This document shows, piece after piece, positions 4,425 through 19,117 of a stretch of DNA of 30,930 bases. The DNA is from a virus. The stretch spans positions 1 through 30,930 of IMG/VR virus record IMGVR_UViG_3300022072_000082. One strand, given 5' to 3'. Numbering within the stretch: the stretch's first letter is position 1; each line of letters opens with the position of its first letter. The notes under the pieces were generated by a model. The model saw nothing but the letters and a program-made list of their open reading frames with translations. It did no database searches and was not told the origin of the DNA. The position numbers and the translations under genes were made by a program.

Positions 4425-4703
4425 TTAATGATTGTTTAGGGAGGTGGCTTCGGCTGCCTCTTTTTGTTGGTAGTAGTCTGCTAAGGTCTTGCCGTTATAG
4501 TTGGCGTTACGTATAGCTAATTTTATTATCTCGGTCAGAGCTGGCTCGTTAAAGTTGGTAATCTTACGCTCTCCGCTTATAACGGTATTGAGGGTATGTA
4601 CGCTAATTAAATGTCTCTCAGATACTACCTGGCGTTCTGCTCGAGTAGTATTAGCTTTTATAGCTCTTGTTAATTGTTTGCCTAAATATGGTTCGAATTT
4701 CAT
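4425..4703 (-). CDS. Candidate HTH DNA-binding regulator
   Basis: 92-aa mostly helical basic protein. Residues about 22-47 (ERQVVSERHLISVHTLNTVI, then SGERKIT) fit the pattern of a helix-turn-helix in small phage regulators, with a 'hliSvhTLntVisGerk' recognition segment. The C-terminal part is a second helical region (LADYYQQKEAAEA). The ATG overlaps the stop of the 50-aa gene by 4 nt, and both lie in the transcript started at the operator-bearing promoter at 4870-4897. This protein is therefore a good candidate for the factor that reads the shared operator, which would make it autoregulatory. Family membership and target are inference; a structural or replication role is possible. Confidence 0.5.
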   Translation of the reverse strand: MKFEPYLGKQLTRAIKANTTRAERQVVSERHLISVHTLNTVISGERKITNFNEPALTEIIKLAIRNANYNGKTLADYYQQKEAAEATSLNNH

Positions 4704-4852
4704 AACTTCTTAGTAATTTTGGTTAAAGTCTCTACCTGGTCAGACCAGTAACAATCTTTGGTAGCTTGAAAGTTTTTTTCTGCTGAGGTAATTTTCTCCT
4801 CAAGGCATATCGCTACCCAGCTACGTTCTTCTAAGTTTAAATCTATTATCAT
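4700..4852 (-). CDS. Small acidic hypothetical protein, first gene of the operator-controlled operon
   Basis: 50-aa protein beginning MIIDLNLEERSWVAICLEEK and ending in a charged helical segment; not matched to any family I know. The ATG at 4852 lies 17 nt downstream of the -7 element of the operator-bearing promoter, and its TGA overlaps the next gene's ATG (ATGA junction). The promoter-proximal position, the coupling to the next gene and the absence of any alternative frame in this stretch make it a probable real gene. Confidence 0.6.
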   Translation of the reverse strand: MIIDLNLEERSWVAICLEEKITSAEKNFQATKDCYWSDQVETLTKITKKL

Positions 4853-4869
4853 TGTGTTTAATTGTTTTG

Positions 4870-4897
4870 CAAATATAGTATTTATTGTTAATACAAG
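4870..4897 (-). promoter_or_regulatory. Leftward promoter with 17-bp operator (copy 1)
   Basis: On the leftward strand the -7 element TATATTTG (4870-4877) is preceded immediately by the 17-bp imperfect palindrome GTATTAACAATAAATAC (4878-4894) and then by a -33-like CTTG overlapping its far edge. The element matches the Bacteroidetes consensus TAnnTTTG, and the spacer is filled by an operator-like repeat of the form GTATT-N7-AATAC. Two further promoters in the window have the same arrangement. The transcript would begin about 10 nt before the ATG at 4852. Confidence 0.75.
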
Positions 4898-4908
4898 GTT
4901 ATTTTATT

Positions 4909-5076
4909 TTAACTTGTACGTTTATTTTTTTCTTTTAATTTTAAGTCTATAAGTTCAAGTATGCAGACAAAGCCTATCACAAAATTAATAGTTCCGTAAA
5001 CCTTGTAGTCGCAAATTGCGACCATAAAACCAAGTGGCATTAATATAGTTCCTACTTTTAATATTTGTTCTTTCAT
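4909..5076 (-). CDS. Small two-helix membrane protein
   Basis: 55-aa protein with two hydrophobic helices (about 7-22, VGTILMPLGFMVAI, and 28-42, YGTINFVIGFVCIL) joined by a short CDYKVY loop and followed by a Lys-rich tail. The probable topology is both ends in the cytoplasm. It begins 4 nt after the upstream 61-aa gene and is third in the short operon started by the operator promoter at 5452-5480. Its stop is only about 15 nt before the -33 side of the next operator promoter. Function is unknown; small membrane proteins in early phage operons often affect host envelope or superinfection, which is only a possibility here. Confidence 0.58.
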   Translation of the reverse strand: MKEQILKVGTILMPLGFMVAICDYKVYGTINFVIGFVCILELIDLKLKEKNKRTS

Positions 5077-5080
5077 AATT

Positions 5081-5266
5081 TTAGTATAAAGTGTAATTTA
5101 ATCCTGATAATTCTAATTCTTTTTCGATATTGTATAGCATATCTTCGCTTTCGTAAATGTCCTGGTATTCGTCATAGCTAAAGCCGAGCTTTTTACTTGT
5201 TTTTTCTAACCACTCAGAGCCAGCGGTAAAGTCTTTAGGCGCGAAGGTGATTTGTATTCTGTTCAT
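5081..5266 (-). CDS. Small acidic hypothetical protein
   Basis: 61-aa strongly acidic soluble protein (SYDEYQDIYESEDMLYNIEK in the centre), beginning with a short basic stretch MNRIQITFAPK. I do not recognise a family. Acidic DNA-mimic behaviour is conceivable given the Asp/Glu/Tyr-rich middle, but nothing shows this directly. Its start overlaps the stop of the previous gene by 4 nt, and the membrane-protein gene follows after 4 nt, making it the middle gene of a three-gene operator-controlled operon. Confidence 0.55.
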   Translation of the reverse strand: MNRIQITFAPKDFTAGSEWLEKTSKKLGFSYDEYQDIYESEDMLYNIEKELELSGLNYTLY

Positions 5267-5433
5267 TTTACTAAATAATAAGAGTTAGATGTTGCTAAAA
5301 AATTAAACCAGTCAGCATCGGTATTATGCTCAAGCTCCTCGAAGGTAGCTTTTGAAAACTGCGAGGTGCGGTACTTACTATCCTTTACTCTTATAGTGAA
5401 GGTGCGGTCTTTTTGATTTGCTTTTACGTTCAT
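5263..5433 (-). CDS. Small hypothetical protein, first gene of an operator-controlled operon
   Basis: 56-aa protein beginning MNVKANQKDRTFTIRVKD. An in-frame ATG also exists at 5454, but it lies within the -7 element of the promoter at 5452-5480 and so cannot be in the transcript. I therefore place the start at 5433, giving the same promoter-to-start distance (17-22 nt) as at the other two operator promoters. The short protein looks beta-rich at the start and helical at the end (FEELEHNTDADWFNFL). No family is recognised. It is coupled by a 4-nt overlap to the next gene. Confidence 0.6.
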   Translation of the reverse strand: MNVKANQKDRTFTIRVKDSKYRTSQFSKATFEELEHNTDADWFNFLATSNSYYLVK

Positions 5434-5451
5434 TTCTTTGTTATTGTACTG

Positions 5452-5480
5452 CAAATATAGTATTAAACTTTAATACCAAA
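5452..5480 (-). promoter_or_regulatory. Leftward promoter with perfect 17-bp palindromic operator (copy 2)
   Basis: The leftward strand reads TTTG (5477-5480), 17 bp of perfect inverted repeat GTATTAAA-G-TTTAATAC (5460-5476), then TATATTTG (5452-5459). Both promoter elements match the Bacteroidetes consensus (-33 TTTG, -7 TAnnTTTG), and the whole spacer is a palindrome with 8-bp arms. A bound dimer would directly block RNA polymerase. This is the best promoter in the window and drives the 56-, 61- and 55-aa genes. Confidence 0.85.
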
Positions 5481-5813
5481 CTATTTTTTATTTATTTTTA
5501 TTTCTACCATATCGTCAGCTCCTTTACTACTGGTTATTAAAATACTCTTTATTACTTTGTATCCATCACTCTCGAATATTATATCCTCTATCATTTTTAC
5601 CATAGCCACGCAGTTAGAAGCGTCTAAGGGTCTGCTTTTAAAAGTGAAGTGGTATTCTGTATCGTAACTCTCAGAGGCTGGCAGCACCTCCTTAAATTGG
5701 CTTTTAACTATTAGAATGTAATTGTCTTTTAGCTTTTTACGGAACGACCAATGCTTTGAACTATACCAAACATTAAGCGAAACTTTCGGGAGGTCTTTTA
5801 AAATTATTTTCAT
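5481..5813 (-). CDS. RusA-like Holliday junction resolvase
   Basis: 110-aa protein likely to cleave Holliday junctions or branched DNA before packaging. It has the RusA-like order: a short N-terminal strand region, a basic segment (SFRKKLKDNY), a strand YHFTFKS, then the acidic core RPLDASN with Asp64 and Asn67. Lys73, Glu76/Asp77 in KMIEDIIFESDG, Asp83 and a final beta strand follow. In RusA the core reads RDxDN...K...D, so one of the paired acids appears replaced here. Length (about 110-120 aa) fits. It is the first leftward gene from the divergent region and sits with the exonuclease and annealase. The resolvase call is probable, but activity is uncertain because of the altered motif. Confidence 0.6.
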   Translation of the reverse strand: MKIILKDLPKVSLNVWYSSKHWSFRKKLKDNYILIVKSQFKEVLPASESYDTEYHFTFKSRPLDASNCVAMVKMIEDIIFESDGYKVIKSILITSSKGADDMVEIKINKK

Positions 5814-5820
5814 TTAACTA

Positions 5821-5828
5821 CAAATTTA
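5821..5828 (-). promoter_or_regulatory. Possible leftward -7 element before the resolvase gene
   Basis: TAAATTTG on the leftward strand fits the Bacteroidetes -7 consensus. It ends only 7 nt before the ATG at 5813, so the transcript would be leaderless or nearly so. The upstream spacer lacks both a clear TTTG and the operator palindrome seen at the other leftward promoters. Confidence 0.4.
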
Positions 5829-5851
5829 TTTTTTTATTCGGATTGTATTTT

Positions 5852-5859
5852 TATATTTG
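5852..5859 (+). promoter_or_regulatory. Rightward promoter, -7 element TATATTTG
   Basis: A perfect Bacteroidetes-type -7 element faces the replication block. A T-rich stretch sits at the -33 position (no clear TTTG) and there is no GTATT-N7-AATAC operator. Initiation would fall near 5864-5868, placing the structured RNA element at 5866-5958 at the 5' end of the transcript. Confidence 0.6.
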
Positions 5860-5865
5860 CAGAGA

Positions 5866-5958
5866 TATTAACCGTTAGGAGGTTATTAATTAAAGATATT
5901 TAAAGACCAAGCTTTAGCAGTAGTCCTAACCTACTTCTAAGGTAAGGTCTTTTTTTTT
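5866..5958 (+). ncRNA. Structured leader or small RNA with predicted pseudoknot
   Basis: About 93 nt between the TATATTTG promoter and a T-tract with no open reading frame starting in it. The 3' part folds into a long hairpin: 5902-5908 pairs with 5946-5952 (AAAGACC/GGTCTTT). Then 5912-5917 pairs with 5937-5942 (one G-U), and 5919-5923 pairs with 5931-5935. The apical loop is UCCUAAC (5924-5930). That loop is perfectly complementary over 7 nt to GUUAGGA at 5874-5880, predicting a long-range pseudoknot. The upstream strand also contains AGGAGG (5877-5882), so pairing would hide this Shine-Dalgarno-like sequence. It may be a free small RNA or an attenuating leader for the replication genes. Confidence 0.6.
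5902..5958 (+). terminator. Intrinsic terminator in the leader of the replication block
   Basis: Three stacked stems (7, 6 and 5 bp, separated by small internal loops) are followed by a run of nine T residues (5950-5958). It lies upstream of the first replication gene rather than after a gene, so transcription into 5998-12031 requires read-through, antitermination or another promoter. Confidence 0.72.
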
Positions 5959-5997
5959 ATTAGTTTATTGGTTAATCTTAAAAACCATTATAAATTT

Positions 5998-6201
5998 ATG
6001 AGTAAAATTAAAAAGTTATTTTTTGATTATCAAGACCAAACAAATTTAGAAGTTTTTTCATCAAAAAGTGAAATTGTGATTGTAATTAGCGATTATGAAG
6101 GTAGCCATTTTATTGAGCTTGACATATCAACAGCTATATCACTTAGCAAGGAGTTAAGAAAAGAAATTAATATAGCTAAAACTTTTAACGAATATGAATA
6201 A
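5998..6201 (+). CDS. Hypothetical protein, first gene of the replication block
   Basis: 67-aa protein starting at ATG 5998 (MSKIKKLFFDYQDQ). A TTG 30 nt upstream is in frame but lies close to the terminator T-tract and gives an unlikely N terminus, so I prefer the ATG. The sequence alternates beta strands (LEVFSSKSEIVIVISDY) with a C-terminal helix (ISLSKELRKEINIA). No family is recognised. Its last codons overlap the start of the replication organiser gene by 8 nt, which ties it to that operon. Codon choice (many GAT, AAT, ATT) differs somewhat from the following genes, hinting at separate acquisition. Confidence 0.55.
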   Translation: MSKIKKLFFDYQDQTNLEVFSSKSEIVIVISDYEGSHFIELDISTAISLSKELRKEINIAKTFNEYE

Positions 6202-8912: not shown

Positions 8913-9179
8913 ATGGAAAAAACAGAAAAAGTATTCGCAGACGGTTTTATGTTCAAAATGAAACCCGATTCTCCTGAGTGGGTAGTAGGTAGCTTGAGCC
9001 TAAAAGCAGACGAGGCAATAGCCTTTATTCAAAAGAACACCGATAAAGGTTGGGTAAACCTAAACGTTAATATAGGCAAATCAGGCAAGCCTTACGTAGA
9101 GCTTGACACTTGGAAGCCAACGCAAGCGGCTGCAACTTCTCCAGACCCTGAATTTAATTCCGAAGGGCTACCCTTTTGA
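8913..9179 (+). CDS. Possible phage single-stranded DNA-binding protein
   Basis: 88-aa protein with a beta-rich body (VFADGFMFKMKP, EWVVGSLSLKADEAIAFI, GWVNLNVNIGKS, KPYVELDTW). A Pro/Ala/Ser linker and an acidic tail ending in EFNSEGLPF follow. The extreme C-terminal Leu-Pro-Phe preceded by acidic residues recalls the Asp-Asp-Ile-Pro-Phe tip of bacterial SSB that recruits partner proteins. With its location among replication genes, this makes an SSB analogue plausible. It is shorter than a full OB-fold SSB and I cannot confirm the fold. The stop overlaps the TTG start of the next gene. Confidence 0.5.
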   Translation: MEKTEKVFADGFMFKMKPDSPEWVVGSLSLKADEAIAFIQKNTDKGWVNLNVNIGKSGKPYVELDTWKPTQAAATSPDPEFNSEGLPF

Positions 9180-10528
9180 TATTACAAGAGATATATTTCG
9201 ATAAGAGCATTCGAGATTATGCTCTTAAATTAACAAACAACACCCAAGAAGCCGAGGAGTTAGTCTCTTTGGCTTTTGACATTTGTAGCCATAAGCCGCC
9301 TAAAGAAAATATGAAGGGGTATTTTGCAATAGTAATGCGGAATCAATGGTTAAAAAAATGTAATAAGACAGACCCGTACTGGGCAATAGAAGAGAGCGAG
9401 AGCGAGGATATAGAAGACGTACTCTCTAAGATGAGCCATTACAACGCTAATCTAATTCGAGCCGTTTATAACGGAGATACTCTTATCAAAATACACAACG
9501 AAACCTCTATAAGCTACCGCAGCATTAAAAGCGACTACAAGAAAGCAAAAAAAGAATTTAAGATAATGTACGAGAACAAAACCAAAATAGCTATCGTTAT
9601 GAGTACGGTTAGCGGGGTAAGCTATCACCGCTTAATGATGCCACTCGTTAGACTGAGCCAGGACTACGGAATAGAAGTAACTTGCTTAATTAATAACGCT
9701 GACGATTTTTTAGAGAAGCTTGACGGAGTAACCCACGTTATTTTTAATCGTAATATCTCCGAGCTTATGAAGCCTGAAGAGACTATCTTAATTTTAAAGG
9801 CAAGAGGTATTAAAGTTATCTGCGATGTAGACGATTACTGGGTATTACCTAAAGGACACCCTTTGCAATTATATTACTCGAGGTCTAATATGGCTAAATG
9901 TATTTTAGCAAACATCAAATTTGCGGACGTAGTATGGACTACCACAAAGATTTTAGCGGAGAAAATTAGACCCTATAACAAAAACGTAGAGGTAATTAAA
10001 AACGCTATTGACCCTAACGAAAAACAATTTGCTTACGAAGATTTGTCTTTAAAATTTGATACTTTCTTTTACTCAGGAGGCAGCACCCACTTAAAAGATT
10101 TAAAGCTATTAGGTAACGCTTTCGATAACGAATATTTAACCGTTAAAAGCCCGAGAGTACCTAAGCGAATGAGTCCAATACTTCAGCAAGTTAGCAGCAT
10201 ACAAGAATATGCGACAGAGTATCAGCATTGTGGTATATGCATAATACCTTTGAGAGATAACCTATTTAACCGATGCAAGAGTGAGTTAAAGATGATAGAG
10301 GCTGGACACTTTGCCAAGCCCGTAATGGTCAGCAACGTAATGCCCTACAACCTACTCGCTACTAATAGCAATAGCCTGAAGGTACAAGGTAATGACTGGG
10401 CGGCTGCAATAAAGAAAATAAAAGGTAACTATAATATGCAGATAGAGTTAGGACTAAAGCTAAAAGAAGACGTTAAGAGCAAGTATGATATAGTAAAAGA
10501 AAACGCAAAAAGACTTCAAACATTATGA
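9176..10528 (+). CDS. Fusion of an ECF sigma-like domain with a GT-B glycosyltransferase domain
   Basis: 450-aa protein in one uninterrupted frame, starting at TTG 9176 (overlapping the upstream TGA). Residues 1-130 look like a compact sigma-70/ECF factor. Region 2 is NNTQEAEELVSLAFDI plus MKGYFAIVMRNQWL; region 4 is RAVYNGDTLIKIHNETSISY, then RSIKSDYKKAKKEF. From about 137 a glycosyltransferase begins (KIAIVMSTVSGVSYHRLMMP). It shows CDVDDYWVLPKGHP at 216-229 and the EX7E-like donor-site block CKSELKMIEAGHFAKPVMVS (367-386). An internal Met131 (nt 9566) sits at the domain boundary and could start a separate glycosyltransferase. The sigma part may redirect host RNA polymerase; the acceptor of the sugar (DNA, protein or surface glycan) is unknown. 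Confidence 0.68.
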   Translation: MILQEIYFDKSIRDYALKLTNNTQEAEELVSLAFDICSHKPPKENMKGYFAIVMRNQWLKKCNKTDPYWAIEESESEDIEDVLSKMSHYNANLIRAVYNGDTLIKIHNETSISYRSIKSDYKKAKKEFKIMYENKTKIAIVMSTVSGVSYHRLMMPLVRLSQDYGIEVTCLINNADDFLEKLDGVTHVIFNRNISELMKPEETILILKARGIKVICDVDDYWVLPKGHPLQLYYSRSNMAKCILANIKFADVVWTTTKILAEKIRPYNKNVEVIKNAIDPNEKQFAYEDLSLKFDTFFYSGGSTHLKDLKLLGNAFDNEYLTVKSPRVPKRMSPILQQVSSIQEYATEYQHCGICIIPLRDNLFNRCKSELKMIEAGHFAKPVMVSNVMPYNLLATNSNSLKVQGNDWAAAIKKIKGNYNMQIELGLKLKEDVKSKYDIVKENAKRLQTL

Positions 10529-10677: not shown

Positions 10678-10859
10678 GCGAGGAGCTTGAGAGTCAAATA
10701 AGGGTCATAGTCAAGCAACAAGGCGGAGGTATAAGCCCGCACCTTAGAGCAGAGTTCCAAAGGCTTTGCCAAGAGGATTTCGCCTACCGACCTGACATTA
10801 CTTGCGGTAAGTGTATATATAAACATAGCGTTAAGCTATTTGATAAGTATTTAAAATGA
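10674..10859 (+). CDS. Small hypothetical protein with CxxC motif
   Basis: 61-aa protein (MSEELESQIRVIVKQQGGGI...). A C-terminal TCGKCIYKH (Cys-x-x-Cys...His) could bind a metal ion together with Cys32 in LCQED or bind nothing at all. The N-terminal half is helical. No family is recognised with confidence. Its start overlaps the upstream stop (ATGA) and its stop overlaps the ParB/methyltransferase start, placing it directly in the DNA-modification and packaging run. Confidence 0.58.
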   Translation: MSEELESQIRVIVKQQGGGISPHLRAEFQRLCQEDFAYRPDITCGKCIYKHSVKLFDKYLK

Positions 10860-12031
10860 AACTAACAGAAATAAAATCAAACCCTAATAACCCCAGGGTA
10901 ATTAAAGACCATAAATTCGAGAAGCTAAAAAAGTCTATTAGCGAGTTCCCTAAAATGATGGAGCTTAGACCTATGGTAATAAACGAAGATAATATAGTCT
11001 TAGGCGGTAATATGCGTTTAAAGGCGTTAAAAGACTTAGGATATAAAGAAGTACCTGAAGAGTGGGTAAAGCGAGCCAGCGACCTTACAGAGGAGGAAAC
11101 GAGGCGTTTTATAATTGCGGACAATGTAGGCTTTGGAGAACACGATTGGGAGATGCTTGCTAACGAGTGGAATACTGAAGAGTTAGAGGATTGGGGATTA
11201 GAGGGGTTTCCGTTTGAGGAGGTTACAGAATTAGAGGCAGAAGAAGACGACTACACCGAACCCGACAATATACAAGTAGATGTAGTATTAGGCGACCTTA
11301 TAGAGATAGGAGAGCATAGGTTATTATGTGGGGATAGTACAAACTCAGACCAAGTAGCAAAGCTAATGAATGGACATAAGGCAGATATGGTATTTACAGA
11401 CCCTCCATATAAAATAGAAACAGAAGGCGGATGTAAAGGAAGTATCGGTCAAGGATTAAAAAAACAAGGAGATAGTATTGAATTTATATCAAACTTTGAA
11501 CCAACTGAATTTTTACAAGTGCTGCCATTAATATTTCACAAGAATAAACTAAACGCATATATATTTTGCAATAAAGAACTATTGCCAGATTATTTAGTAT
11601 GGGCAAGAGATAGTGGTTATTCTTTTAATGTTCTTATATGGAAAAAGCCAAATGCTATTCCAATAGGAGATTCACATAGACCAGATATAGAATATTTGCT
11701 TTTATTTAGAAAGTCCGCAATATGGAATAATGGACTAAAGGATGTTAATTATTCAAGATGTTTAGAGTTTGGTAGAGAAAGTGGATTACATCCAACAATG
11801 AAGCCGATAGAATTAATTGCTAATGAAATGAAGATTAGTTCAAATGAGAATAGCTTAGTATTTGATTTTTTCTTAGGCTCAGGCTCTACAATGGTTGCTT
11901 CACACCAACTTAAACGCAAGTGTTACGGAATGGAATTAGACCCTAAGTACTGCCAAGTTATAATAGATAGAATGAGCAAACTTGACCCTTCTTTAGAGGT
12001 AAAGATTAACGGAGTAGTTTATAATAAATAA
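10856..12031 (+). CDS. ParB/Srx-domain plus beta-class DNA methyltransferase fusion
   Basis: 391-aa protein. Residues 1-95 are a ParB/sulfiredoxin-type domain (IKSNPNNPRVI, then NIVLGGNMRLKALKDLGY at 46-63). After an acidic linker (124-137) comes an amino-methyltransferase that uses SAM to methylate adenine-N6 or cytosine-N4. Motif IV DPPY is at 182-185, HPTMKP at 312-317, and the SAM-binding motif I DFFLGSGST at 337-345 followed by GMELDPKYC. Motif IV before motif I is the beta-class order. The target recognition region between them (about 186-310) determines specificity, and its codon use differs from the flanks. Such fusions are common phage orphan methyltransferases that protect phage DNA. 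No partner restriction enzyme is seen. Confidence 0.88.
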   Translation: MKLTEIKSNPNNPRVIKDHKFEKLKKSISEFPKMMELRPMVINEDNIVLGGNMRLKALKDLGYKEVPEEWVKRASDLTEEETRRFIIADNVGFGEHDWEMLANEWNTEELEDWGLEGFPFEEVTELEAEEDDYTEPDNIQVDVVLGDLIEIGEHRLLCGDSTNSDQVAKLMNGHKADMVFTDPPYKIETEGGCKGSIGQGLKKQGDSIEFISNFEPTEFLQVLPLIFHKNKLNAYIFCNKELLPDYLVWARDSGYSFNVLIWKKPNAIPIGDSHRPDIEYLLLFRKSAIWNNGLKDVNYSRCLEFGRESGLHPTMKPIELIANEMKISSNENSLVFDFFLGSGSTMVASHQLKRKCYGMELDPKYCQVIIDRMSKLDPSLEVKINGVVYNK

Positions 12032-14918: not shown

Positions 14919-16157
14919 ATGGCTATTACTATCCAAAACCAACCAAACCAACTACACGTAAGACCAGCCTTTGCTCCTATTGAGTATTTATTAAGCTCAA
15001 CAAGCACCGCACAACCTGGATTTAAAATAGTTTGTAAAATATATCTTAATCCAAGCGGAGCGAATACACTTATAAGCACTCAGCAAATAAACGTAAGACC
15101 TTCGACTACTCAAGCTATACTCAGCATTCAAGACGTAGTAAAGTCTTTTGCCCCAGTTTATAGCTATATGACTAAGCAAGCGTCTAACGTAAATAACGAT
15201 ACTTTAAACCAATTTAGAGTAACCTTTCAGGAGTATTACAATGGTGCTTTGCAAGGCTCTATTTCTACTTCCGATACAATATACGCTTATAGTGCTTCAC
15301 CTAAGTACATCCAATTTGCTACAAACGAATGGTTATCTTATTACTTGAGTTCTTTTTTTGCAAATAGAAAGTTTTTAAGTGGATTCGATAATATAATACC
15401 AGTAATAAACTCTTTTAAAAGTTCAGACCCTTGGCTAAAGGTAAAAAGTACGCAAAAAGTGCAAGTACAATGGCTGGAAAGGAATGTAACTTTGCCTTTT
15501 AAAATGTGGTTTAAAACATTAGACGCTAATTTTAATCAAATTTCTTTAAGTATTTCTGACCTTGGAACTTCGACTGCATCTTACAACGGATTTAACGTAG
15601 GAAGACAAGAGGCAAATTCAAGTAGTTGGAATACTCCAATAGTTTGGACTAATGCAAAGTATTATGCAGTAGGCATAGTTGACGATGCTACCAGCGAATT
15701 AGCTTCTTATTGTTATCTATACGAGTTAGACGAGTGCGATACTAACTACACGCCTTACGAGCTGCATTGGTTAAACCGTTGGGGCGGGTTCGATAGCTTT
15801 GTATTTGATGGCAAGAGCAACCAAACTACTCAGGTAAATAAAACTTTTGCGAAATACTCGCCTGATAGGATAAGCGGAACGAGTTTAAACTACTCTACCT
15901 CTGCGCAACGTACGAGAGCATTTAATACGGCTACAAGCGAGATTTATAGTCTTAATAGTAGATTACTCCAAGACTTCGAGGTAAGTGGCTTAGAAGACCT
16001 CGTAACGAGTCCCGAAGTTTATTGGAGAAGCGAAGCTGGATTTGTAAGCGTAAACGTAAGCGGCAATACCTACCAGCACGCCAAGAGCGAAAACGGATTA
16101 GTGTATAGCCTTGCCTTAGATATGACGATTGATAACTCAGATGAACGTCAATGGTAA
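14919..16157 (+). CDS. Tail tip / distal tail-type structural protein
   Basis: 412-aa beta-rich virion protein (MAITIQNQPNQLHVRPAF...). Repeated Ser/Thr/Asn-rich strands are followed by a conserved block YELHWLNRWGGFDSFVFDGK (about 283-302), which is widely shared by structural proteins of Bacteroidetes phages encoded next to the tail hub. The C-terminal part (about 340-412) ends in a strand-rich EVYWRSEAGFVSVNVSG region. It lies between the neck gene and the very large tail protein, overlapping the latter by 7 nt, so a baseplate or distal-tail role is likely. The precise part is not certain. Confidence 0.55.
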   Translation: MAITIQNQPNQLHVRPAFAPIEYLLSSTSTAQPGFKIVCKIYLNPSGANTLISTQQINVRPSTTQAILSIQDVVKSFAPVYSYMTKQASNVNNDTLNQFRVTFQEYYNGALQGSISTSDTIYAYSASPKYIQFATNEWLSYYLSSFFANRKFLSGFDNIIPVINSFKSSDPWLKVKSTQKVQVQWLERNVTLPFKMWFKTLDANFNQISLSISDLGTSTASYNGFNVGRQEANSSSWNTPIVWTNAKYYAVGIVDDATSELASYCYLYELDECDTNYTPYELHWLNRWGGFDSFVFDGKSNQTTQVNKTFAKYSPDRISGTSLNYSTSAQRTRAFNTATSEIYSLNSRLLQDFEVSGLEDLVTSPEVYWRSEAGFVSVNVSGNTYQHAKSENGLVYSLALDMTIDNSDERQW

Positions 16158-19117
16158 TAGAGCATATTATAGCGGGCTACTCTATACCGCATAACGAAGG
16201 GGCTATACCTCTAACCAAAGAGGCATACGATGTAAACAACCCACAGAAGAGGCTATCGGATTACTCTAAAACTATTACTATACCTGAGGGTAAGTTAGTA
16301 AATCAAATATTCGAACACGCTTTCGATGTAAACGTAGATTATCAGACTTTTAATCCTAATTTAAAAACAAGCTATCAGATACTACAAGACGGGGTATTAG
16401 CAATTGACGGGTACTGCCAACTATTAGCGATTAAAGACGTAGACGGCTTAGTAACTTACGAGATAGCCGCAACTGGTAAGGTAGGCAACCTATTTGAGAA
16501 GATAAAAGATAAGTACTTACAAGACTTAGACCTCTCAGCTTTAGACCATACCTGGAGCCAAGCTAACATAGAGGATAGCTGGACGGCTACAATAGGCGAG
16601 GGATACGTTTACCCTATGATTGATATAGGAGGGCGTAGTAGGTATACTATTTGGAAAACTCAAGAATTTAAACCAGCTATTTACTTAAAGCAATATTTAG
16701 ACGCTATAATCTCTGAGGCTGGGTATACTTACGATAGCACTTTTTTAAACACAACGCTATTTAAAAGTCTTATAATTCCTTACGGAAGCGGTAAGATACT
16801 TTTAGACAACGCTGCTATATTGTGCAAGGAGTTTAGCGCTGAATGTATAACAAGTTATTTAGTTCAATGCCAAAGCATAAACGACCCAGCTAATTTAGCA
16901 GATAGTATTTTAGTCTTTGACAAAGCGGACTTTATCTCTGATTATTATGCTCGAGTAATAGCGGACGGTGGAGTATTAGAAAACCAAACTTGTTTAGAGG
17001 CTGCATATCCGAACGAATACTTTAATACTTGCGAGGACGAGTATAATAGTACAACTGGTATTTATACAGCTCAAGCAGATAATAAAATAAGCCTTCAGGG
17101 AGTTTTAAACTTTGATTTAATTTATAACGAAAGTAGCCCGCTTACTACTAACTATTTTAACTCAGTACCACACTTTAGTTTTAAGGCTTATGTAAACTGC
17201 TATGTAGTTTTAAAAAGAGATTTAAACTACTCTATTATACAAACGCTGCAACTTGACGTAACCCAAAACGCAATAGACAATCCTTTAGCTGGTCCGTTTT
17301 CTTTATTACCCAATAATTCTATAACTTATATTACTGGAGAGCTTGATTTATTAGAAGGAGACGAAGTATTTTTATCAATTGGAAGCGTTAAGTATTCGGG
17401 TACTTTTGGTGGACCAAATATAATTAGTTATACAAACGATATAGACTTTGAATTTAGATTAAAAACGGGAAGCACTTTAGCGTCTAAATATTTAGAGACT
17501 GAGCTTGGAGTAGGCGAAACTATAATAACTCGAGTAGTAGTACCTAAACAAATTAAGCAAGTAGATTTATTCAGTAGCGTTATAAAGCGTTTTAACCTTT
17601 ATATAGATTACGACCCTTTAGACGATACTAAATTAATTATAGAGACAAGAGACGACTACCTAACCTCTGACAAAGTAGACATAGAGCAGATGGTAGATAG
17701 GTCAAGAGATTACCTTATAAAGCCTTTAGGAGCGTTAGACGCTGGTAGGTTTATATTTGCAGACCAAGAAGACAAAGACTCTATAAACGATAACTATAAG
17801 AATATCTATGACGAGGTTTACGGACAAAAAATAATAAACGTAGATAACGATTTTGTAACTTCAGATAAAACGATAGGGACAATATTTGCACCTACTCCGC
17901 TTTATTCCTCAGACGATAACGATAGAGTTATATCGGCTATGCTATTTGTAAATGAAAATGGACAAGTTACAGAGGCAACGGCTAAAATTAGGCTTTTATA
18001 TTGGGGTGGATTATTACCAACGCAAAAGCCTTGGGCGTTTGAAAGCAGCTTGAAAACTTCTTACCCTTACGCTGGGCATTTAGATAATCCTTACGAGCCT
18101 ACCTTCGATTTAAATTGGGGAGTACCTAAGCAGCTTTTTTACAACTTTAACTACGGCAAGGTTTACACTCTCAACTATCCGAATACTAACTGCTATAACT
18201 TCTTTTGGAAAAAATATATAGATGAGATTACGGATAAAAATAGCAAAATACTTGAATGCTATTTAGCTCTAAGACCTTACGACTATAACGAGCTTTCCTT
18301 TCGTAAAAACTACTATATTGACGGTAGCTACTGGAGACTATTAAGCGTAGTAGATTATGACGCTACAAGCGGACAGACTACAAAGTGTACCTTCTTAAAG
18401 GTAGAGCCAAAAGATGCATTTATAGGAGAGATTAAACCAGTATATGGCGGCATAGATACTTATGAAGACGGTAACGATTTGCCAATAGGAAATACTTTAG
18501 TAAAGCCTAACAATAATAGCGGACAGACTCAGGATAGTTTACAATTTGGAGAAAGCGTAAAGGGTGGTACTCGCTCGCTTATCGCCTCAGATAACGTAAG
18601 CCAATCCTTAAACTCTGTAAATGCGTTAGTTATTGGGAGTGATTACTCAGAGGTAAACGCTGACAACGTAACTATAATTAACTCACCTTACACTAACGCT
18701 ATACGACCTGATGAGACTTATATAAACGGGCTATTTGTAGAGAAATTAGCCTCTATCGTAGTACCTACTTTTGTACTTGAAAACTTAACGCAAGGTCTTG
18801 AGGTATTACCTCCTTTACCTGACAACGAGTTCTATCAAATAACAAGGGGTTATATTAGACTAAACGGAGACCCCGCAATGACTGGTAAAAAATTAGAATT
18901 CCAAGTATCAGTAGAAGGACACTCTTTAGCAAGCATAAAAGCAGCGTTTTTTAATACCGCAGATAACGTAGGATATATAGACGAAGACGCTCACTTAGAA
19001 GCTGACATCCACTTCGGCGAGGCTATAATCTTAAAAAGCCCCACTACTGATATGACCTTCCCAAGTGGCGAAACAACTTTAACAATTAACTTAGTATATA
19101 GAATTATAAAACTATAA
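16151..19117 (+). CDS. Large tail-tip protein, tail-hub-like
   Basis: 988-aa structural protein. The N-terminal part (about 1-190) has a conserved arrangement seen in tail hub proteins of Bacteroidetes phages: LSDYSKTITIPEGKLVNQIF (35-54), FNPNLKTSYQILQDG, QDLDLSALDHTW and YVYPMIDIGG. The middle is beta-rich with few repeats. The C-terminal 200 residues (after GGIDTYEDGND, about 775) contain a beta-strand-rich domain that may be exposed on the particle. It overlaps the previous gene by 7 nt and abuts the tape measure with a 1-nt overlap. The size and position suggest the platform for receptor-binding proteins. Enzymatic activity is not evident. Confidence 0.62.
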   Translation: MVIEHIIAGYSIPHNEGAIPLTKEAYDVNNPQKRLSDYSKTITIPEGKLVNQIFEHAFDVNVDYQTFNPNLKTSYQILQDGVLAIDGYCQLLAIKDVDGLVTYEIAATGKVGNLFEKIKDKYLQDLDLSALDHTWSQANIEDSWTATIGEGYVYPMIDIGGRSRYTIWKTQEFKPAIYLKQYLDAIISEAGYTYDSTFLNTTLFKSLIIPYGSGKILLDNAAILCKEFSAECITSYLVQCQSINDPANLADSILVFDKADFISDYYARVIADGGVLENQTCLEAAYPNEYFNTCEDEYNSTTGIYTAQADNKISLQGVLNFDLIYNESSPLTTNYFNSVPHFSFKAYVNCYVVLKRDLNYSIIQTLQLDVTQNAIDNPLAGPFSLLPNNSITYITGELDLLEGDEVFLSIGSVKYSGTFGGPNIISYTNDIDFEFRLKTGSTLASKYLETELGVGETIITRVVVPKQIKQVDLFSSVIKRFNLYIDYDPLDDTKLIIETRDDYLTSDKVDIEQMVDRSRDYLIKPLGALDAGRFIFADQEDKDSINDNYKNIYDEVYGQKIINVDNDFVTSDKTIGTIFAPTPLYSSDDNDRVISAMLFVNENGQVTEATAKIRLLYWGGLLPTQKPWAFESSLKTSYPYAGHLDNPYEPTFDLNWGVPKQLFYNFNYGKVYTLNYPNTNCYNFFWKKYIDEITDKNSKILECYLALRPYDYNELSFRKNYYIDGSYWRLLSVVDYDATSGQTTKCTFLKVEPKDAFIGEIKPVYGGIDTYEDGNDLPIGNTLVKPNNNSGQTQDSLQFGESVKGGTRSLIASDNVSQSLNSVNALVIGSDYSEVNADNVTIINSPYTNAIRPDETYINGLFVEKLASIVVPTFVLENLTQGLEVLPPLPDNEFYQITRGYIRLNGDPAMTGKKLEFQVSVEGHSLASIKAAFFNTADNVGYIDEDAHLEADIHFGEAIILKSPTTDMTFPSGETTLTINLVYRIIKL

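Follow-up and report, generated by a model that had tools for sequence, protein, structure and literature searches.

A conserved in-frame fusion of an ECF sigma-like domain to a GT-B glycosyltransferase in phages that probably infect Bacteroidota

Organization of the locus

The window analysed here comprises the whole 30,930 nucleotides of a viral sequence (IMG/VR record IMGVR_UViG_3300022072_000082), and its plus strand carries, at positions 9176-10528, an open reading frame (ORF) of 450 amino acids that begins with TTG, ends with TGA, and contains no internal stops in a frame reading of the window. The encoded protein can be divided into (i) a helical domain resembling sigma region 2 (residues 1-62; 9176-9361), (ii) a flexible linker of low pLDDT (residues 63-75; 9362-9400), (iii) a helix-turn-helix domain resembling sigma region 4 (residues 76-133; 9401-9574), and (iv) a GT-B glycosyltransferase (GT) domain of the PHROG 7162 family (residues 134-450; 9575-10525), all on the plus strand. 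The TTG at 9176 is the sole usable start codon, the frame being closed 6 codons upstream, and this start is supported because relatives use either TTG, as most do, or ATG (L032-L034, L063, and L065) at the same codon. The TTG start is kept across nearly the whole fused family (position 9176 of the window; L061, L064, and L066-L068), and in distant members (L061, L064, and L066-L068) a TAnnTTTG sequence resembling the Bacteroidota -7 element lies just upstream of it. A search of the whole window with the host-type promoter pattern TTTG-N18-23-TAnnTTTG returned one match, which is the level expected by chance. No phage promoter motif was identified.

The fusion gene is preceded on the same strand by a gene for an 88-amino acid protein (8913-9179), syntenic in fused relatives, whose stop codon (TGA) shares bases with the TTG start codon of the fusion gene in the sequence TTGA. 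This protein had no Pfam or PHROG match; its C-terminal end, GLPF, resembles the acidic tip of SSB proteins, and from that end alone it is putatively termed SSB-like. Gene order in fused relatives is kept as repO, DnaC-like, HNH, SSB-like, fusion, ParB-methyltransferase, and terminase large subunit (TerL). In the window, the gene downstream of the fusion (10856-12031) combines a ParB-N-like domain with an N6/N4 DNA methyltransferase. The spacing between fusion and TerL is highly variable among relatives, which suggests an insertion hotspot. The late region contains an ORF of 988 amino acids (16151-19117) that matched nothing in Pfam and no PHROG significantly, although homologous coding sequence is found in L075 and L079. 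The virus host is probably a member of the Bacteroidota, judging from a related Bacteroidetes metagenome-assembled genome (MAG) contig (L131), the MAG context of related GTs, and the occurrence of TerL relatives in phages of Flavobacterium and Parabacteroides.

Conservation of the fused reading frame

The preliminary description had read this ORF as a sigma-like domain joined to a GT in one frame with no stop, with a boundary near residue 131. Relatives were collected from IMG/VR with the whole protein and with an alignment of the N-terminal domain as queries, and sequences with identical C-termini were collapsed, leaving 72 distinct full-length proteins from viral contigs that carry both halves in one frame, with identities ranging from approximately 100% down to approximately 37%. 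None of the fused relatives checked contains an in-frame stop. Ratios of nonsynonymous to synonymous substitution (dN/dS; NG86, pairs with unsaturated dS) were approximately 0.03-0.09 for both residues 1-130 and residues 131-450, and both halves are thus under strong purifying selection; the junction stretch (residues 121-150) gave noisier NG86 values, from 0 to 0.13, which are still well below 1. The 72 distinct intact relatives and the dN/dS values together rule out an artefact, frameshift, sequencing error, or chance read-through. The fusion is confirmed as one intact two-domain ORF, in which known parts are combined in a new architecture, and its boundary was correctly placed, at about residues 131-136.

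The C-terminal glycosyltransferase half

Assignment of the C-terminal part to the GT-B enzymes, as originally proposed, is borne out by both profile and fold comparisons. The GT half matches PHROG 7162 at 2.3e-48 over profile positions 3-302 of 309, which amounts to a full-length match, and a Foldseek search with the full model returned a top list of GT-B enzymes (GlgM, PglA, Gtf3, and GtfC; best 5.5e-11), with the two Rossmann-like domains of the GT-B fold. Searching PDB sequences with the GT profile gave no match at 1e-3. In an alignment of 18 divergent fused and stand-alone GTs, two motifs are invariant alike in fused and free members. These are DxDD, present here as DVDD (residues 217-220; 9824-9835, plus strand; D217, D219, and D220 invariant), and KSxLKxxE, present as KSELKMIE (residues 368-375; 10277-10300, plus strand; K368, S369, L371, K372, and E375 invariant). 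The latter is a variant of the EX7E motif common to the fused GTs and the stand-alone phage GTs, in which the second Glu (E375) is invariant and position 367 is occupied by C, S, L, M, or another residue.

Among the closest known systems for this half are the stand-alone phage GTs of PHROG 7162, for example gp073 of Escherichia phage phAPEC8, which share full-length homology and both motifs with it but, unlike it, are not fused to a sigma domain; the phAPEC8 protein is encoded in a GT cluster. The GT-B/GT4-type enzymes named above are similar in fold (Foldseek 5.5e-11 and weaker), whereas they share only approximately 12-18% identity with the GT half, which lacks the first Glu of EX7E.

The N-terminal sigma-like half

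A single-sequence Pfam search detected Sigma70_r2 in the N-terminal part with E=0.074 and 13.3 bits, below the gathering threshold of 24, and because this signal is weak, profile and fold evidence is needed. A family profile of the N-terminal domain matched the ECF sigma structures 1h3l (6e-4) and 5uxx (1e-3) and, in 395 Bacteroidota genomes, many ORFs of approximately 170-250 amino acids, over about residues 9-129. Eight of the best chromosomal matches, when read, proved to be typical ECF sigma sequences, and the chromosomal ECFs found by the profile carry the classic DADDLVQE...KAWL..IMKN signature. No fused copy was found among the matches listed for these 395 genomes, and the sigma-like N-domains tried had no match in 50,697 annotated phage records.

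An AlphaFold2 (AF2) model of the N-terminal domain, built from 25 sequences, has a pLDDT of 85.5 and places helices at residues 10-20, 23-38, and 46-61 in the region 2-like domain and across residues 76-133 in the region 4-like domain. Nearly all top matches of this model in a PDB fold search (best 1.7e-4) are either sigma factors, for the most part of ECF type, or the PhyR domain that resembles sigma, and in BFVD the best matches are phage sigma factors wherever they carry a telling name. TM-scores are approximately 0.4, which we attribute to a hinge between the two sigma-like domains in the model; taken by itself, the region 4 domain superposes on the -35 promoter binding domain of 3hug with 1.4 A over 57 columns. 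The AF2 model, Foldseek, and profile matches agree on an ECF layout, with sigma regions 2 and 4 in order and region 3 absent. Chance likeness to sigma factors is ruled out by the profile search and the two fold searches, and the ECF-like character first suggested for the N-terminal residues extends over residues 1-133.

Relatives with separate genes and the origin of the fusion

Related phages were recruited by a scan with a terminase alignment. In many of them a lone sigma-like gene lies upstream of TerL; in some, sigma and GT genes are kilobases apart, and in others the stretch fetched contains a GT but no detected sigma. Relatives with split genes, which the preliminary description had suggested looking for, thus exist, and they include directly adjoining pairs. 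In L131, a contig from a Bacteroidetes MAG that has a phage terminase close by, a sigma-like ORF of 175 amino acids (4474-5001) overlaps a GT ORF (4998-6077) by ATGA; the same overlap is present in the L138/L144/L149 group, and in L137 the two genes are separated by a short gap. The L131 sigma used as query in viral contigs found no relatives. A further apparent pair, in L136, was rejected, the weak N-domain match there being an open-ended, uncharacterised ORF that shows no features of a sigma factor. In L148, L151, L152, and L155 a small ORF starting ATGAAAGAAATTTTAAT separates the sigma-like gene from the GT, where close relatives have the direct overlap. A cassette in L149 (4274-7332; also of the type seen in L138-L156) comprises HNH-like, sigma-like, GT, second GT-like, and FkbM-like methyltransferase genes that overlap or nearly touch upstream of TerL; with functions read by eye from the sequence, it looks like a glycan-modification module.

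Whole-record searches revealed one sigma-like locus per record in all 20 phage records, which had been picked for having sigma, GT, or TerL matches (G411 has two neighbouring matches within one ORF); this locus is fused in the fused lineage and free elsewhere. Fused GTs form one clade (support 100/99), and the GTs of adjacent pairs form a separate clade that includes one member without a detected sigma. Since the fused proteins are monophyletic, they can be explained by one event, the simplest history being a single fusion of genes that were neighbours and coupled. Adjacency of sigma and GT genes may nevertheless have arisen more than once.

Proposed function and competing explanations

We propose that the ORF encodes one two-function phage protein in which a phage sigma factor or RNA polymerase adaptor would be linked to a catalytic GT. 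The N-terminal half would descend from a small ECF-type sigma gene of the kind carried upstream of the terminase gene in related Bacteroidota phages, and most probably continues to engage host RNA polymerase, directing it to phage (late) promoters; this role is suggested because the stand-alone relatives lie upstream of the packaging genes. The C-terminal half would be a catalytic GT-B enzyme of the PHROG 7162 family that probably adds sugar to a virion or host-surface component, since its relatives lie in glycan-type clusters (phAPEC8 and L149). Fusion would have arisen from a state in which the GT gene immediately followed the sigma gene and was translationally coupled to it, and would keep the halves co-expressed at a fixed ratio, requiring no sugar transfer onto RNA polymerase. 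Two independent jobs fit the finding that sigma and GT genes occur without each other or kilobases apart in related phages. The two domains, the single-copy sigma locus, the adjacent split relatives, the one fused clade, and selection on both halves are demonstrated, and from there we infer an active sigma, an active GT, its acceptor, and the reason for the fusion; taken whole, an explanation in which the sigma half acts on host RNA polymerase, the GT acts on the virion or surface, and the two are fused for co-expression is our best one, with about an even chance of being right. A counterpoint is that the fusion has been retained over such divergence, which suggests a possible importance of the linkage as such, something for which this explanation has no need.

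The strongest objection to a working sigma factor comes from region 2.2. In canonical sigma factors the DLVQ(E/D) motif of this region contacts the core enzyme, and a DxxQ(E/D) motif is typical of ECF sigma factors, though not strictly required. DLVQ(E/D) is kept in chromosomal ECFs and most of the stand-alone phage relatives aligned; in the fused clade, however, the Q-(E/D) pair is replaced (Q to S), the motif reading EELVS(L/V/K) with Ser31 invariant (EELVSL in the window), so that core binding by the fused protein may be altered or lost. Because of this replacement, we only infer sigma activity. The main rival explanation is accordingly that the ECF-derived domain no longer directs transcription and serves as an adaptor that binds DNA, RNA polymerase, or another protein, or as a structural partner that positions or oligomerises the GT. 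Besides the loss of the canonical pair, this is favoured by Pfam sigma scores below cut-off and by the absence of the Gln from L184 as well, but both sigma-like domains are retained with dN/dS below 0.1, and the locus is the only sigma-like one of the fused phages, sister phages having a single stand-alone gene. We regard such an adaptor or structural role as unlikely, if a serious competitor.

The preliminary description had gone further, suggesting that the protein might modify RNA polymerase or DNA at promoters. In its broad form, the sigma half would bring the GT to RNA polymerase or promoter DNA, where it would glycosylate RNA polymerase, a sigma or anti-sigma factor, or phage DNA bases in the course of host takeover. 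Fusion and adjacent, coupled gene pairs would point to a Rosetta-stone type of functional link, and the active-site-type residues are the same in fused and stand-alone GTs. Set against this, related phages carry sigma-like genes with no GT nearby or kilobases from one, and the surroundings of the relatives point to glycan decoration, with the phAPEC8 GT in a cluster of several GTs where no sigma was detected and that of L149 beside GT-like and FkbM-like methyltransferase genes; in addition, no base-hydroxylation gene was present among the window proteins searched. Nothing observed here points specifically to modification of RNA polymerase or promoter DNA, and we consider targeted modification in general quite improbable. 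Physical delivery of the GT by a phage sigma domain to RNA polymerase or promoter DNA, with glycosylation of the transcription machinery or template during infection, appears about equally improbable. If the sugar target were RNA polymerase or DNA, this would be a new takeover strategy; the literature searched contained no description of phage takeover by glycosylation of transcription machinery or template.

Comparison with known ECF sigma factors bears on a further alternative. ECF sigma factors, including stand-alone phage members (PHROG 1740 and 1190, annotated as RNA polymerase sigma factor), share the two-domain layout and fold of the N-terminal half; the fused protein differs from them in the replaced Q-(E/D) pair, a shorter linker, and an extra GT domain of 317 residues. 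As in ECF41, ECF42, ECF56, and ECF238, which have C-terminal extensions, the extra domain directly follows sigma region 4, the GT-B domain beginning at about residue 134; the known extensions, in contrast, are of SnoaL-like, TPR, or Cys-rich type. The literature searched yielded neither a GT extension on an ECF sigma nor a published sigma-GT fusion. The GT half could be a ligand-sensing regulatory extension, in which binding of a nucleotide-sugar would change the activity of the sigma half as do the SnoaL-like C-terminal domains of ECF41 sigmas. If N-terminal extensions are counted together with C-terminal ones, at least 26 ECF groups are known to have regulatory extensions, and glycosyltransferases occur in the gene neighbourhood of group ECF248 (PMC8999054). 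The GT half, however, keeps the invariant catalytic-type residues of stand-alone phage GTs and is a free protein in the split relatives, and we think a sensory role very unlikely.

Least credible is the suggestion that one gene yields two products, the full-length protein and a separate GT initiated internally, at Met131 (9566-9568, plus strand) or close to it: a Met at or near the junction is indeed present in most fused relatives, and L066-L068 carry one where stand-alone GTs start, but the L061/L064 branch has ILH or ILS instead, so that an internal start is rejected as a general feature of the family, and Shine-Dalgarno strength is no guide to Bacteroidota start sites here.

By documenting the conserved sigma-GT architecture together with split, overlapping-gene relatives, this analysis makes linkage versus mere co-expression a directly addressable question. 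Another outcome is an apparently unstudied family of ECF-like sigma genes, present in single copy upstream of the terminase, in phages of Bacteroidota, in which, to our knowledge, the control of late transcription is poorly known. Lastly, the PHROG 1740 sigma profile spans 567 positions, of which the phage sigma-like proteins cover only approximately 55-221, and other sigma fusions may be represented in the remainder.
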